Assembly: GCA_020846515.1 (NCBI GenBank)
Contig: JADLDX010001046.1
Span: 1 to 5,549 of the forward strand
DNA length: 5,549 nucleotides
Direction of reading: 5' to 3'
Source of the DNA: Pirellulaceae bacterium
Lineage (GTDB): Bacteria; Planctomycetota; Planctomycetia; Pirellulales; Pirellulaceae
Shown: positions 1 to 5,549 of the stretch, piece after piece
Layout of the letters: each line of letters begins with the position of its first letter
Position numbering within the stretch: position 1 is the stretch's first letter
The notes under the pieces: generated by a model
Told to the model about the DNA's origin: nothing
The model's database searches: none
Seen by the model: only the letters and a program-made list of their open reading frames with translations
Made by a program: the position numbers and the translations under genes

Positions 1-660
1 CCACGCCAGCTGCTATGCGAGTCGCTGGACAAGTTGTTCGCAGAACCACTGCATGCGCAGCACGTACGCGATGCGGTAGAGTGCAAATTGTTTGGCCTGG
101 GTTCGGAAAGCTACGTCGTTGGCTCGCACGAATTCTACTTGGGGTATGCCATCAGCCGTCGTAAACTGCTCTGCTTGGATGCTGGCCATTTTCATCCTAC
201 GGAAGTGATCTCGGACAAGATTTCATCAACCTTGCTGTGGGTCGACGAGTTGCTGTTGCATGTCAGTCGCGGTGTCCGTTGGGACAGCGATCATGTGGTT
301 GTCCTGAATGATGAATTGAGCGCGATTGCCCAGGAAATCGTGCGTAATGGCTTGTTACCACGCGTCCATCTTGGACTGGATTATTTTGATGCGAGCATCA
401 ATCGCGTAGCCGCGTGGGTGATCGGGACGCGGAATCTACTGAAAGCTCTACTGGCCGCGTTATTGGAGCCCAATCAATCATGGCGAGCACTTGAACGATC
501 GGGTGACACCACGGCTCGACTGGCTCTACTAGAAGAACAAAAGACAATGCCGCTGGGGGCTGTCTGGAATGAATACTGTCAACGGCAAGGTGTGCCTACC
601 GGACAAGACTGGCTGACCGACGTCCGGTCTTACGAACAAAATGTATTGCTCAAACGCTAA
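1..660 (+). CDS. rhaA: L-rhamnose isomerase, C-terminal half (5' end outside the window)
   Basis: RhaA interconverts L-rhamnose and L-rhamnulose in the cytoplasm, the first step of L-rhamnose catabolism. The frame is open from base 1 and ends with TAA at 658-660, giving 219 residues. The family is about 420 residues long, so roughly 200 N-terminal residues lie upstream. The TTG at 34 is internal and not the start. The seven metal ligands known from the E. coli enzyme all appear with identical spacing, numbered from base 1: E27, D60 and H63 (in [10 protein letters not shown]), H87 (LLLHVSR), D95 and D97 (RWDSDH), and D127 ([10 protein letters not shown]). The C-terminal blocks [15 protein letters not shown] and the near-terminal YE motif also match the family. 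The enzyme should therefore be active. One small deviation is HVSRGVRWD, where E. coli has Pro in place of Gly. The importer ATPase follows 30 nt later on the same strand, consistent with an uptake and catabolism operon. Recognition is from family knowledge. Confidence 0.96.
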
Positions 661-677
661 GCCATCGAAGCGAATCC

Positions 678-682
678 TGGAG
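678..682 (+). promoter_or_regulatory. Ribosome binding site of the ABC ATPase gene
   Basis: TGGAG sits 8 nt before the ATG at 691, inside the 30-nt gap after rhaA. It is a reasonable Shine-Dalgarno match and supports the chosen start. The rest of the gap shows no hairpin and no clear promoter, which favours co-transcription with rhaA. Confidence 0.55.
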
Positions 683-690
683 TTAACGAT

Positions 691-2232
691 ATGGTTTTGC
701 GTCTGAACCACATTTCGAAATCCTTTGGTGTTGTTCGCGCGCTGCAGGACGTGTCTCTCGAGGTAGCCGCGCGTGAAGTGCATGCTCTGGTGGGTGAAAA
801 CGGGGCCGGGAAATCGACATTGATCAAGATTGTGACGGGCGCTTATCGGCCCGACGCTGGTGAAATCTACCTTGGCGGCTCCCGGGTCAGCCAGTTTGAT
901 CCGATCGTGAGCAAACAACTGGGCGTGGCGGTCGTCTATCAACAACCGACCTTGTTTCCGGATTTGTCCGTTGCCGAAAACCTAGCCTACGGCTGCGAAG
1001 GCGATACTGGTTGGCGGCTTATCAATTGGAACGCTCGGCGTCGACTGGCGACACAATTGCTTGCGCGCGTGGGCGCGGAGATATCGCCCGATACCTTGGC
1101 CAGAGATCTAAGCATGCCGCAGCAGCAGTTGGTCGAGATCGCCCGTGCCATCGGCCAAAAAGCTCAGTTAGTCATCATGGATGAACCAACGGCATCCTTG
1201 AACACGCGTGAAGTCGAACACTTACTCGGTGTGATTAAGGAATTACGCGCTAATGGTTTGGGCATTCTGTACGTTACACATCGCCTCGAGGAACTAACGC
1301 AGATTGCCCAGCGAGTCACCGTGCTCCGCGATGGAACATGGATCGCTACGCGACCCTCCAACGAGATATCGCCAGCCGAGTTGATTCGCTTGATGGTCGG
1401 CCGCGATGTCTCAACAATCTTCCCTAAAACGACCGTCCCCATTGGCAAACCACGCTTGCGCGTAGAACAATTGTCTTCCAGTACCGTCGGCATTCACGAT
1501 GTCTCGTTCCATGTCAGCGCTGGTGAGATTTTGGGAATTGGTGGGCTGATGGGCGCAGGCAGAACGGAACTCGCCCAGGCTCTGTTCGGCCTGGTGCCGA
1601 CCGACTCAGGCGCGGTGTTGATTGACGAGCAGCCGGTCACCCTGGACTCGCCAGGCCAGGCTATTTCGCAAGGGCTGGCTTATGTGCCGGAAGACCGGCG
1701 TCGTCATGGTGTCATCCCCGAGATGCCGATCGCCGCCAACGTTACGCTCAGCCTCTTGGATGCGGCCCCGGCCAGCGCCAGATCGGGTCTGATTTCTGGT
1801 GCCGCCTCCGATAGGAGTCTCATCAAAGGTCGATGGGGAATTGACTTCCAAAACGAACAGCAGATGGCTGTGCAGGCTATCGAACAGTTGCAAATAAAGA
1901 CCTCGTCTGCTCAAGCCAAAGTGGAATCATTGTCTGGTGGCAATCAACAAAAGGTGGCTTTGGGACGTTGGTTGGCCATTGGTCCCAGGATTTTGATTCT
2001 GGATGAGCCGACGCAAGGCATTGACGTGGGGGCCAAGTCAGAAATCTATCGCGTCATGACCGAGTTGGCTGGACAGGGAATGGCCATTGTGCTCATCTCC
2101 TCCGAGATCCAAGAATTGCTGGGCATGTGCGATCGCATCACTGTTATGCGTAGCGGTACAATCAGCGGCACGCTCGACCGAAGCCAGGCGACCGCCGAGC
2201 AGATCATGCATTTAGCCCTGCCAGACGCCTAA
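691..2232 (+). CDS. rhaT: Rhamnose-type sugar ABC transporter, two-domain ATP-binding protein (CUT2 family)
   Basis: Cytoplasmic ATPase that powers a CUT2 sugar importer. The symbol follows the rhizobial rhaSTPQ system, not the unrelated E. coli rhaT symporter. At 513 residues it has the usual RbsA/MglA length and two fused nucleotide-binding domains. Domain 1: Walker A GENGAGKST (35-43), Q-loop near Q84, signature LSMPQQQ (141-146), Walker B ending D164-E165, switch H197. Domain 2: degenerate Walker A GLMGAGRTE (285-293) with Arg291 in place of Lys, signature LSGGNQQ (414-420), Walker B ending D438-E439, and SSE in place of the switch His. One canonical and one degenerate domain is normal for this family. 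Residues about 370-388 look like a short insertion relative to E. coli RbsA as I remember it. The ATG at 691 is favoured by the upstream GGAG. The first permease starts 23 nt downstream. L-rhamnose specificity is inferred from neighbours, because the ATPase does not reveal the sugar. Confidence 0.93.
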   Translation: MVLRLNHISKSFGVVRALQDVSLEVAAREVHALVGENGAGKSTLIKIVTGAYRPDAGEIYLGGSRVSQFDPIVSKQLGVAVVYQQPTLFPDLSVAENLAYGCEGDTGWRLINWNARRRLATQLLARVGAEISPDTLARDLSMPQQQLVEIARAIGQKAQLVIMDEPTASLNTREVEHLLGVIKELRANGLGILYVTHRLEELTQIAQRVTVLRDGTWIATRPSNEISPAELIRLMVGRDVSTIFPKTTVPIGKPRLRVEQLSSSTVGIHDVSFHVSAGEILGIGGLMGAGRTELAQALFGLVPTDSGAVLIDEQPVTLDSPGQAISQGLAYVPEDRRRHGVIPEMPIAANVTLSLLDAAPASARSGLISGAASDRSLIKGRWGIDFQNEQQMAVQAIEQLQIKTSSAQAKVESLSGGNQQKVALGRWLAIGPRILILDEPTQGIDVGAKSEIYRVMTELAGQGMAIVLISSEIQELLGMCDRITVMRSGTISGTLDRSQATAEQIMHLALPDA

Positions 2233-2255
2233 TACTAAGAGCTGTTTAAGAAAAC

Positions 2256-3278
2256 ATGCCATCCCCCAACTCAATGCTTACTCGCTACGGACGCGAGGTT
2301 TCGATAGCCGCTGCGCTGATTGGATTGTTGGCGATCGTGGCGTTGTTTGCACCAGCCTTCTTTCGCCCTGAGCATGTGCGCGACAAATTGGTGGCCAACG
2401 CACCGGTACTGGTCGCAGCCATAGGGATGACGTTGGTCATCATGGCTCGACAAATTGATATCTCTATTGGTTCACAATACAGCGTCTGTGGCGTGGTGAG
2501 TGCACTGGCAGCGGCCGAAGGCTGGCCTCTGCCGCTGGTTATTTGCTTGTCGATTGGGACAGGCGCTTTGATGGGGTTGGTCAACGGATACTTCGTGGCC
2601 TATGTGAAGTTACCAGCCATCGTGGTCACACTTGCGACCATGGTCATCTTTCGAGAAGCCTTGCGTTGGTGGCGCGAAGGTGAATTTGTGCGAGGCTTGC
2701 AGGATCATCTCCAATGGTTTGGGGCTGATCAATGGACAGGTCAGTGGATCATCGTGGGCGTTAGCAGTTCAGTCTTGCTGTCCATGGCAATCTGGCTGCG
2801 CAGTGCGCGCAGCGGGCGCAGTGTCTTGGCCGTTGGGTCCAATCAAGAGGCAGCCCGCTTGGTGGGCATACGACCGCAACGCGTGCTTTTGGCGGTTTTT
2901 GTACTGATGGGGGGACTAACCGGTTTGGCCGCCTTGCTGGGAGCAGCACGCTTCGGGGACATCGATCCCAACGCAGGCAGTGGCTTGGAATTACAGGTTA
3001 TCGCGGCAGTGGTTATCGGTGGTACGGCCATCGCCGGTGGGCGAGGGTCCATGATCGGTACACTCTTGGGGGTCGCTCTGCTGGGATTGATTGGACCGAC
3101 ATTGGTATTCTTGCACATTCAGCCGCAATGGGAGAAAGCACTGCAAGGCGTGATCATATTGGCGGCGGTAGCCTCTGAGTCTATATGGCAAGTTCGACCG
3201 GCTCGTAAACGTAGCCAGATCCCCCCTGCTCTGCCGGGCGTCCTTCCAGCGACCAATAGGTCCCAACCTTCACCATGA
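2256..3278 (+). CDS. rhaP: Rhamnose-type sugar ABC transporter, first permease subunit (CUT2, RbsC-like)
   Basis: Inner-membrane permease that should pair with the second permease to form the transport channel. The 340 residues are mostly hydrophobic, compatible with the eight to ten membrane segments of the RbsC/BPD_transp_2 family. The first hydrophobic stretch is about residues 17-36. Family marks are RQIDISIG (65-72), the cytoplasmic coupling loop GRSVLAVGSNQEAARLVGI (187-205), which meets the ATPase, and VIGGTAIAGGRGS (253-265) ahead of the last membrane segments. The final 30 or so residues form a basic, proline-rich tail, probably cytoplasmic. The ATG at 2256 lacks a strong Shine-Dalgarno sequence. 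An alternative ATG at 2274 would remove six residues without touching any motif. The stop overlaps the next start as ATGA. The RhaP label rests on gene order (T, P, Q, S) and on rhaA. The protein alone shows only that it is a CUT2 permease. Confidence 0.9.
   Translation: MPSPNSMLTRYGREVSIAAALIGLLAIVALFAPAFFRPEHVRDKLVANAPVLVAAIGMTLVIMARQIDISIGSQYSVCGVVSALAAAEGWPLPLVICLSIGTGALMGLVNGYFVAYVKLPAIVVTLATMVIFREALRWWREGEFVRGLQDHLQWFGADQWTGQWIIVGVSSSVLLSMAIWLRSARSGRSVLAVGSNQEAARLVGIRPQRVLLAVFVLMGGLTGLAALLGAARFGDIDPNAGSGLELQVIAAVVIGGTAIAGGRGSMIGTLLGVALLGLIGPTLVFLHIQPQWEKALQGVIILAAVASESIWQVRPARKRSQIPPALPGVLPATNRSQPSP
3275..3278 (+). promoter_or_regulatory. ATGA stop/start overlap between the two permease genes
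   Basis: The first permease ends TGA at 3276-3278 and the fusion frame begins ATG at 3275. No Shine-Dalgarno sequence is evident before this ATG, so translation probably depends on ribosomes finishing the upstream gene. That suits two permeases needed in equal amounts. In-frame ATGs at 3290 and 3305 could be used instead. Confidence 0.55.
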
Positions 3279-3304
3279 CAGCAGCCAACATGACAGCAGC
3301 CGCC
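3275..3304 (+). repeat. Tandem 15-bp repeat at the start of the fusion gene
   Basis: ATGACAGCAGCCAAC is followed directly by ATGACAGCAGCCGCC, matching at 13 of 15 positions. A third unit beginning ATGAC at 3305 is more diverged. The repeat encodes MTAAN-MTAAA-MTHAT, supplies three in-frame start codons, and keeps frame when copies are gained or lost. Confidence 0.8.
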
Positions 3305-5443
3305 ATGACGCATGCCACTCATCGACAACATCTATCATTGATGCTCATGTTGGTCGTCGAGGTTTCGCTCTTTGCGATACTGGGCACCAACTTCTTCTCT
3401 GTTGCTAACGCATTTGAAGTGCTCAGGCTGAGTGTTGAAATTGGACTGCTAACTCTAGCGATGACATTGGTCATTGTCAGTGGCGGCATCGATTTGTCGG
3501 TCGGTTCGCTGATGGGATTGTGCGCGGTGATTTTCGGAGGGCTGTGGCGTGATGCCCAGTTGCCGTTGCCGTTGGCAGCCTTGGCGACGATCGGTGTAGG
3601 CGCGGCCTGCGGCGCGATTAACGGCTGGCTGGTTGCCAAACTACGCCTGCCGCCGCTGATCGTGACCCTGGGGACATATTCTTTGTTTCGCGGTTTGGCC
3701 GAAGGTCTGACCGGTGGCGTTGAAAACTATACGGGATTGCCCGAATCTTTTCTGTTTCTCGGACAAGGTTATTGGTTCGGATTCATTCCCGCGCAATTGC
3801 CACTGCTAGTCGTGCTGGCTGGGCTGAGCTACTGGTGGCTGAACCGCGCAGCGTTGGGTCGAGCGCTCACGGCGATTGGCTTCTCGCTCGAGGGCGCCCA
3901 GTATGCAGGCATCCAGGTCGATCGTCGACTGATGAGCGTGTATGTCATCAGCGGTCTGTTTGCCAGTCTGGCCTCACTGGTATATGTGGCCCACTTGGGA
4001 CAAGCCAAAGCCGATGCGGGTACAGGCTATGAGTTAATGGCCATCACCGCCGTTGTCTTAGGCGGCACTTCGATATTCGGCGGACGAGGCACGATTGTCG
4101 GATCGTTGCTAGGCTTATTGGCGATTGCAGTATTGCAAAATGGATTGCGTCTATCGGACCTACCAGCCGAACTGGCCGGAATCCTGAGTGGTGTACTACT
4201 GCTCGCGACGATCTGCATCGACCGATATCGCAGTCAGTCGGCGGCGGGCTCGGCGGCCAACGTCGCCGCTCTTCCTACCCATTCGACATCCGATAAGATG
4301 TGGCTTCCCCCAACGTCAACCGGACAGGAGTTTGAAATGAAGTACGGTCAGTTAGCCATCCTGTGCGCCACCATTTTGCTGGGCGCATTGATCATCGCCG
4401 GCAGCAACCGGGCCGTCGTCGACGCCATAGAGCAATCGTCTCGGTTCGGCCAAGCAGACAGCGTTGGGAAAGGCAGCCAGGCCTCAGCCGGTACGATTCC
4501 ACCGACGGCCAGTCGCCAAACCTCGCCGCCAGCCACGGAGCGATTGACAGTGGCGATGATGCCCAAGAGCAAAGGCAATGCCTACTTCATTGCGTGTCGA
4601 AAGGGTGCTGAAGAAGCCGCTGCCGAACTGAATGTAAACCTTTTGTGGGACGGACCAACAGATCCGGATCCCGCCAAGCAGAACGAAGTGATCGATACTT
4701 GGATCACGCGCGGCGTGGATGTATTGGCCGTCGCGGTCGAGAATCGCGCGGGTATCTCCAGCGTCCTACGCAAGGCACGTCAGCGCGGCATCAAAGTGAT
4801 CACTTGGGATTCGGATGCCGAGGTCGATGCTCGCGACTTTTTCGTCAACCAGGCGACACCCGAGGGCATTGGCACAACGCTGATGGACCAGGCCGCCAAG
4901 AGCATGGGTGGCAAGGGAGAATTCGCGATCATCACAGCCTCTCTGACGGCGGCCAACATGATCGAATGGCAGAAGCATATCGAACTGCGCCGCGCGGAAA
5001 AGTATCCAGACATCAAAATGGCCGTGCTGCGTCCATGCGACGACAAGCAACCCAAAGCTTTCGATGAAGCGAACAATATTCTGAACGCTTATCCAAACGT
5101 GAAACTGATCATGGGCATCTGCTCGCCCAGCGTGCCGGGGGCAGCCGAAGCAGTCAAGCAGTCCGGTCGATCGAACGTTAAAGTCATCGGCTTAGGCTTG
5201 CCCAACGACAGCAAACGGTTCGTACACGACGGGATCACCGACGCAGTTATTCTGTGGAACACCATGGACTTGGGTTACTTGACCGTCCACGCTGCACGGC
5301 AACTGTGCGATGGCAAGCTGACTCCGCAATCCACTTCCATCACGGGCGGCCGCTTGGGAGAAATTCAAATCGTCGACCAAAACATCTTGCTTGGTCAGCC
5401 GTTTGTATTTACCAAAGAAAACATAGACAGCTTTGATTTCTAG
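3275..5443 (+). CDS. rhaQ/rhaS: Fused sugar ABC permease and substrate-binding protein (RhaQ-RhaS type)
   Basis: A single 722-codon frame with no internal stop encodes two importer subunits that rhizobial rha operons keep separate. Residues about 17-315 are a CUT2 permease: SGGIDLSVG (69-77), coupling loop GRALTAIGFSLEGAQYAGI (195-213), VLGGTSIFGGRGT (261-273), last membrane segment ending near residue 315. Residues 316-354 are a polar linker, and about 359-377 form an extra hydrophobic segment. Residues 380-423 are rich in Ser, Thr, Pro, Ala and Gln. Residues 424-722 are a periplasmic-binding-protein domain of RhaS/RbsB type, with MPKSKGNAYF (429-438), ITWDSD (509-514), NQATP (525-529), IGLGLP (638-643) and WNTMDLGY (661-668). 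A permease C-terminus inside the cell and one added membrane segment would put the binding domain outside, so the fusion is topologically sound. The start overlaps the previous stop. ATGs at codons 6 and 11 are alternative starts. Met355 could start a separate binding protein. L-rhamnose as ligand is inferred from rhaA and RhaS-like motifs. Confidence 0.88.
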   Translation: MTAANMTAAAMTHATHRQHLSLMLMLVVEVSLFAILGTNFFSVANAFEVLRLSVEIGLLTLAMTLVIVSGGIDLSVGSLMGLCAVIFGGLWRDAQLPLPLAALATIGVGAACGAINGWLVAKLRLPPLIVTLGTYSLFRGLAEGLTGGVENYTGLPESFLFLGQGYWFGFIPAQLPLLVVLAGLSYWWLNRAALGRALTAIGFSLEGAQYAGIQVDRRLMSVYVISGLFASLASLVYVAHLGQAKADAGTGYELMAITAVVLGGTSIFGGRGTIVGSLLGLLAIAVLQNGLRLSDLPAELAGILSGVLLLATICIDRYRSQSAAGSAANVAALPTHSTSDKMWLPPTSTGQEFEMKYGQLAILCATILLGALIIAGSNRAVVDAIEQSSRFGQADSVGKGSQASAGTIPPTASRQTSPPATERLTVAMMPKSKGNAYFIACRKGAEEAAAELNVNLLWDGPTDPDPAKQNEVIDTWITRGVDVLAVAVENRAGISSVLRKARQRGIKVITWDSDAEVDARDFFVNQATPEGIGTTLMDQAAKSMGGKGEFAIITASLTAANMIEWQKHIELRRAEKYPDIKMAVLRPCDDKQPKAFDEANNILNAYPNVKLIMGICSPSVPGAAEAVKQSGRSNVKVIGLGLPNDSKRFVHDGITDAVILWNTMDLGYLTVHAARQLCDGKLTPQSTSITGGRLGEIQIVDQNILLGQPFVFTKENIDSFDF
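4326..4339 (+). promoter_or_regulatory. Possible internal ribosome binding site and start codon at the fusion junction
   Basis: AGGAG at 4326-4330 is followed by a 6-nt spacer and an in-frame ATG at 4337-4339 (Met355). This is the best Shine-Dalgarno match before any of the ATG starts considered in the window. It lies exactly where the binding-protein half would begin. Whether ribosomes use it cannot be told from sequence. Confidence 0.45.
4337..5443 (+). other. Possible separately translated binding protein within the fusion frame
   Basis: Starting at Met355 gives a 368-residue protein beginning MKYGQLAILCATILLGALII. That resembles an export signal or N-terminal membrane anchor: a short basic start, an apolar core, then AGS as a possible signal-peptidase site. 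A long Ser/Thr/Pro-rich stretch and the full binding domain follow. The Cys in LAILC has Leu just before it, which argues against a lipoprotein box. This is an alternative product of the same frame, not an additional locus. Free binding protein in excess over permease is usual for ABC importers, which makes the idea plausible but unproven. Confidence 0.35.
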
Positions 5444-5456
5444 GACGTGGCGGGGG

Positions 5457-5528
5457 TTGCCTTTTCGTAGCCTGCGCTGCCAAGCGGTGGACTTGGCTTT
5501 TCGTAGCCAACGCTGCCAAGCGGTGGAC
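5457..5528. repeat. Two tandem 36-bp repeat copies downstream of the operon
   Basis: Copies at 5457-5492 and 5493-5528 abut exactly and match at 33 of 36 positions, differing at unit positions 4, 17 and 18. Each contains CTTTTCGTAGCC and GCTGCCAAGCGGTGGAC. The repeat begins 14 nt after the operon's stop codon. Overlapping inverted repeats are present: TTGGCT/AGCCAA (5493-5498 and 5505-5510), GCCAAG/CTTGGC (5479-5484 and 5492-5497), and an 8-bp arm pair with one mismatch (5507-5514 and 5519-5526). It looks like a dispersed intergenic repeat family. A memory of similar repeats in Pirellulaceae genomes is unverified. It has hairpin potential but no T-run expected of an intrinsic terminator. Confidence 0.8.
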
Positions 5529-5549
5529 ATCGCCTCCGCCTTAGTCCAC

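Follow-up and report, generated by a model that had tools for sequence, protein, structure and literature searches.

A CUT2-type permease-receptor fusion gene, probably for L-rhamnose import, with a conserved in-frame start signal ahead of its receptor half

Importers of the CUT2 type, such as RbsABC and RhaSTPQ, usually, though not by strict definition, encode their receptor as a gene of its own. As set out in the accessible sections of PMC3870299, the rhizobial importer RhaSTPQ (RhaFGHJ) comprises a two-domain ATPase, two permeases and a separate RhaS-like receptor within a rhamnose gene cluster, and the same sections of this comparative study of rhamnose transporters mention neither Planctomycetes nor a fused transporter. 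Receptors covalently tethered to the channel are described for GlnPQ and OpuA (PMC8025302, PMC11065425; accessible sections), and EgtU of the ergothioneine importer EgtUBC holds a transmembrane domain and a Type II/cluster F receptor in one chain, permease first, with the receptor after six predicted helices (PMC9732360; accessible sections). Genes in which an in-frame internal start yields two nested products are known from the AerR isoforms (PMC6199135) and from a further report (PMC11005335), again as far as their accessible sections go. Here, we describe a gene from a Pirellulaceae bacterium (assembly GCA_020846515.1, contig JADLDX010001046.1, positions 1 to 5,549, hereafter the window) that joins a RhaQ-like permease to a RhaS-like receptor in one open frame (3275..5443, + strand; 722 aa, 76.4 kDa) and carries a conserved start signal between the two halves.

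This locus shares the components of RhaSTPQ but fuses the receptor to one of the permeases and adds an internal start. It differs from GlnPQ and OpuA, which belong to other permease and receptor families, in placing one receptor on half of a heteromeric CUT2 channel, and since its membrane part holds BPD_transp_2 alone, it works like those importers without being one of them. Unlike EgtU, it has a CUT2 permease, a single extra helix and an internal start, and unlike in AerR-type genes, its inner product would be the transporter's own receptor domain in untethered form. We know of no internal start in GlnPQ or OpuA, although no search was aimed at one. Our search of the open literature, with subscription papers outside its reach, found no CUT2 permease-receptor fusion and no importer with an internally started fused receptor.

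The frame has 722 codons and no internal stop, with permease and receptor at its two ends and an extra helix between them, flanked by two linkers, and the Pfam domains, hydropathy and predicted helix all bear out a first-pass annotation, made from the letters alone, that had read it as stop-free from the permease via an extra hydrophobic segment to a full receptor. The permease domain (residues 46-312; 3410..4210, +) matches BPD_transp_2 (PF02653, E 8.5e-41) and is followed by a linker (residues 328-354; 4256..4336, +) that varies across an alignment of 120 relatives, is predicted to be disordered given a low predicted local distance difference test (pLDDT) at 329-360, and would lie in the cytoplasm. 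An extra membrane helix (residues 358-377; 4346..4405, +) comes next, predicted as a helix over 358-394 with a hydropathy of 2.17 and its maximum at residue 358, and the RhaS/LsrB-like binding domain (residues 425-722; 4547..5440, +) matches Peripla_BP_4 (PF13407) at 426-681 (E 2.4e-58). Because its score against the RhaS equivalog TIGR02637 (242.5 bits over the full model, 1-302) falls short of the curated cut-off of 342.25, we call the receptor RhaS-like. The ATG at 3275 overlaps the stop of the upstream rhaP (ATGA), and the exact start of the fused gene is uncertain, with a database copy (P0001, 712 aa) beginning at residue 11, base 3305. Structure prediction of the fused protein (pLDDT 82.6, predicted template modelling score 0.48) supported the domains and the helix but not their mutual arrangement, and gave a second low-confidence stretch at residues 395-419.

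With a two-ABC-domain ATPase, a BPD_transp_2 permease and a Peripla_BP_4/RbsB-type receptor, the system belongs to the CUT2 importers of RbsABC/RhaSTPQ type, and the presence of the ATPase and of a second, separate permease agrees with the earlier proposal of a receptor mounted on one half of a heteromeric channel. Only the usual separate receptor gene is replaced by one open frame, and the internal start may restore a separate receptor despite the fusion.

That start, which the first-pass annotation had overlooked, lies where the variable linker ends. The junction reads AGGAG, six bases, then ATG AAG, in the frame of the fusion, with the Shine-Dalgarno word at 4326..4330 (+) and the ATG at 4337..4339 (+). 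In the alignment of 120 proteins, a conserved E-E-x-x-[V/M]-K-N-x-Q block sits at the end of the linker, immediately ahead of the extra helix, and its V/M column holds V in 102 and M in 18. We then compared codons across a DNA-level collection of 82 distinct fused loci and 90 loci scored as separate. The motif is kept in 67 of the 82 fused loci and in none of the 90 separate ones, and in all 67 its V/M codon is a start codon, GTG in 36 and ATG in 31, with no GTC, GTT, GTA or other codon. Valine there is thus GTG in 36/36 against a background GTG share of 41% in the same genes (log10 P -14.5, assuming independent loci). Among the 66 columns with at least 20 valines, it is the only one that is 100% GTG (the next reaches 0.68), and no other column consists of valine and methionine alone with at least five of each. 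Since the loci are related, we repeated the comparison on a tree, where the motif column needs 0 synonymous changes over its 36 valine rows, while each of the 65 other columns with at least 20 valines needs at least 6 (mean, 14.6). At least eight GTG/ATG switches are nevertheless needed at this codon. Among further database proteins, at least 15 of 119 start exactly at the motif codon, some of them accounted for by short contigs.

The bases ahead of the codon point the same way. Calculated with a general anti-Shine-Dalgarno tail, which may not be the host's own 16S tail, the internal site of the window forms a duplex of -6.9 kcal/mol, stronger than five other tested starts (-5.9 to +0.3 kcal/mol). 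Across the collection, the duplex averages -7.16 kcal/mol at the motif, compared with -2.98 kcal/mol for 2408 in-frame ATG/GTG codons elsewhere in these genes, with -5 reached by 87% and 22% of the sites, respectively. Glutamate at codon -4, the Shine-Dalgarno position, is encoded by GAG in 45/50 loci (28.9 expected, z 5.15), while no such enrichment was seen at codons -10 to -5, -3 or -1 (codon -2, GAG in 4/5); in one locus (L035), the single GAG among 29 glutamate codons sits at codon -4. Around the site, the mRNA is predicted to fold less strongly than in other parts of the genes (-13.4 versus -19.2 kcal/mol), and glutamine at codon +4 is CAA in 44/67 loci, with 16.5 expected. Together, these comparisons strongly support selection on the internal start signal at the nucleotide level, and a conserved Shine-Dalgarno sequence followed by a start codon under such apparent selection is what we would expect of a functional in-frame internal start.

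We therefore propose, with a good measure of confidence although from sequence comparison, that one gene makes two proteins: the 76-kDa fusion of permease and receptor, and a 40-kDa receptor translated from the internal start with its own membrane anchor (4337..5443, +; from residue 355, 368 aa, 39.5 kDa predicted). A single mRNA would then supply one tethered receptor per transporter along with extra membrane-anchored receptors off the channel. Because the permease would end in the cytoplasm, the fusion would need the extra helix, which would carry the receptor outside; in translation from 4337, the same helix would act as an uncleaved signal-anchor. The extra receptors would raise sugar capture beyond the 1:1 ratio that the fusion alone would set. 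The first-pass annotation had spoken of permanent attachment at a fixed receptor-to-channel ratio. The tether is indeed there in the fusion, but the conserved start at 4326-4339 predicts additional unattached receptors, so that permanent attachment is probably half the picture.

The helix 358-394 is part of both predicted products (76.4 and 39.5 kDa) and falls in a conserved block at residues 355-385, with Q359 kept in 67/67 loci and N357 and N378 in 66/67 each. Neither the 15 fused loci without the motif nor any of the 90 separate loci has this block, so that helix and internal start occur together. This association hints at a docking role for the anchor helix, which may let loose receptors dock beside the channel. 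A lipoprotein reading of the anchor was rejected, as the fused anchor helix has no lipobox, which is present in many separate relatives.

Several observations weigh against this proposal. When the eight upstream codons were shuffled among synonyms, the Shine-Dalgarno effect was small (mean z, 0.49; Wilcoxon p 2.5e-4), with 52% of loci lying under the median of their shuffles. It is weak because the residues themselves, E at -4 in most loci and at -3 in many, all but dictate a Shine-Dalgarno sequence. A recognisable Shine-Dalgarno word is absent in 6/67 motif loci, the K/R-N-x-Q part of the motif could be kept for protein reasons, and three database proteins (P0202, P0238 and P0239) have leucine in the start-codon column at the protein level. 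TTG would also be a start codon. Finally, 15/82 fused loci have no motif (L041, L042, L101, L105, L142-L146, L150, L154, L164, L174, L175 and L177), and the internal product is therefore not required everywhere. Since five of them (L041, L145, L154, L174 and L175) hold some ATG, GTG or TTG with a duplex of -5 or below, a fair Shine-Dalgarno match, internal initiation may not have been lost from all 15; scanning the other ten for alternative starts gave nothing convincing.

Could the fusion be the sole product, with the motif kept for a protein reason, such as membrane insertion or the packing of the helix, and with GTG or ATG there by coincidence? The small shuffle effect fits this, as do the strong conservation of the helix that follows (Q359, N357 and N378 above) and the positive charge before it, which is usual for a membrane helix. 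Yet it leaves unexplained why valine is GTG in 36/36, why that column alone needs no synonymous change and why the GAG bias is limited to codon -4, and we regard it as improbable. The opposite possibility, that the free receptor is the main product and the fusion a read-through by-product, or that the fusion is cut after the extra helix (375, 377), as by signal peptidase, to free the receptor, draws on the separate receptor of most other CUT2 systems and on small, -3/-1-like residues at 375 (Ala in 53/67) and 377 (S, T, G or A in 67/67), just before N378. Residues 378-385, past the putative cut, are however as conserved as the helix, against the loose mature N-terminus that cleavage would leave, and the 15 loci that lost the start motif have nonetheless remained fused and in frame, which suggests that the fusion itself is functional; we give this possibility correspondingly little credence. 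An artefact of assembly or sequencing that joined two genes could be suspected, the source being a 5.5-kb contig of a draft genome, but this is next to impossible and was rejected, because five phyla contribute 82 distinct fused loci, including loci on complete chromosomes (Limnoglobus roseus, for example). The 120 fused proteins listed likewise speak against chance or a sequencing error.

Production of both forms from one gene would bear on an old question about importers, a tethered receptor versus a surplus of free ones, which is usually studied in separate families. If true, one gene keeps both, and close relatives without the internal start, or with the gene split, offer natural controls, the 15 motif-less loci being candidate tether-only ones. 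A gene fusion can retain the start of its inner gene, and an annotated "fusion" may mean two products.

How widespread the fusion is was assessed in two ways. In a database search limited by length to fused-size proteins, all 120 listed of 6734 matches (one of them the window's own protein) carried both domains, with 84-100% query coverage and 62-100% identity. Isosphaeraceae, Singulisphaera, Tautonia and Aureliella are among the sources listed, which bears out the earlier suspicion that Planctomycete annotations might contain such an architecture. The fusion is present in public annotation, and what is new is the internal start. The DNA-level collection was built from 80 named loci and from genome-set searches, after dropping 3 copies of the window, 15 duplicates and 6 loci that lacked a receptor match. 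Among its 90 separate loci, duplicates were retained (L048, L103 and L114 represent a single place), as were loci that are broken or lie at a contig edge (L139, L147, L160, L163 and L185); L215, a later find with the motif and Met, stands outside all counts. In L139 (Acidobacteriota), permease and receptor are seemingly joined but in different frames, and the locus is broken or mis-assembled.

The fused loci come from Planctomycetota, Acidobacteriota, Armatimonadota, Lentisphaerota and Verrucomicrobiota. In the genome sets, where receptor relatives were counted at E 1e-70, the Isosphaeraceae group had one in 16/45 genomes, 16/16 of them fused. Relatives that were fused in part occurred in 15/247 Acidobacteriota genomes, in 35/200 of one Acidobacteriota order and in 17/198 Phycisphaerae-type genomes, and the Limnoglobus family had a relative in 1/95. 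The window's own family gave a match in 14/199 genomes, the 13 besides the window having a separate, more distant RhaS. As to stops between the halves in relatives, which the first-pass annotation had taken to speak against a true fusion, the outcome is thus divided: the 120 listed proteins are all fused, but these 13 genomes keep separate genes, one of them (L012) with a single in-frame stop between the halves.

To place these states, we used a tree from a quick search (LG+G4, midpoint root), which leaves out 17 of the 90 separate loci, has many weak inner forks and came with a long-branch warning. On it, 46 separate loci nest with fused ones in a 128-row group (99 in the Shimodaira-Hasegawa-like approximate likelihood ratio test), 39 of the 46 forming one Verrucomicrobiota clade, and the fused or separate state changes seven times. 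Later splitting would be the simpler reading of the separate loci among fused ones, with repeated fusion a less simple alternative, the root not being inferred by the tree method. In L104, RhaS is separate and lies several kb away from the permease, with a membrane anchor that looks uncleaved; the locus may descend from a fused gene that was later split. The 15 motif-less fused loci require six changes, and 14 of them fall in an Acidobacteriota group. Among more distant relatives, rhaQ and rhaS lie adjacent in the same frame with one stop between them in L012, L219, L221, L223 and L224, and with two stops in L220 and L228. These arrangements suggest a likely origin in which the stop codon between adjacent rhaQ and rhaS was lost and the ribosome-binding site and start of rhaS were retained. 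We somewhat favor the fuller account in which one frame supplies tethered and untethered receptor through this retained start, maintained across five phyla and dropped piecemeal within Acidobacteriota, which would be left with the tethered form alone.

Because rhaA lies directly upstream, L-rhamnose is probably the substrate here. The receptor's closest PDB sequence matches are rhamnose-binding proteins (4kvf and 5bq3), while its closest fold matches are LsrB; fold searches gave receptor matches only, among the matches listed, and the permease half had no match among PDB sequences beyond a single unrelated one at E 0.42. We consider it unlikely that the substrate is autoinducer-2 or another sugar, given the rhamnose-binding sequence matches and the placement of rhaA, which also adjoins the fusion in 10 of the 27 long fused loci. 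Since it does so in just these 10, all but one of them in Planctomycetota, the rhamnose assignment is weak for fused loci elsewhere. A RhaEW-like aldolase-dehydrogenase lies near 3/27 (Pfam identification in L028). ATPase and second permease adjoin the fused gene in 25 of the 27, and in L035 (7001-8959, 163-kb contig), neither has a relative within 7 kb on each side. No second RhaS was found at E 1e-30 in 18 of the 19 fused-gene genomes searched (19 of the 27 named ones), and the window's genome has no close one, its next match having 26% identity; without the internal start, the tethered receptor would therefore be the sole one. A second receptor relative, partial and in a long frame, occurs in the genome of L101 (G600 contig C360:4-693).

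The rest of the window carries three upstream genes on the + strand. It opens with the 3' part of rhaA, encoding L-rhamnose isomerase (1..660; Pfam RhaA PF06134, residues 1-219 matching profile 199-417, E 9.1e-108), followed by a RhaT-like sugar importer ATPase of 513 aa with two ABC_tran stretches (691..2232), whose top NCBIfam scores are xylose, arabinose and ribose CUT2 ATPases, every one below cut-off. The second, separate CUT2-type permease, RhaP-like and of 340 aa (2256..3278; BPD_transp_2, PF02653, E 1.7e-40), precedes the fused gene. The source genome is a draft (80.8% complete, 1089 contigs) with the window as a 5.5-kb contig, and at E 1e-60, none of the 13 same-genus genomes listed gave a match. 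The contig (G000 contig C1046) may be mis-binned, with genome contamination at 4.96%, or horizontally acquired. Immediately 3' of the fused gene, at 5461-5527, lie two copies of an imperfect direct repeat (...TTTTCGTAGCC..GCTGCCAAGCGGTGGAC...).

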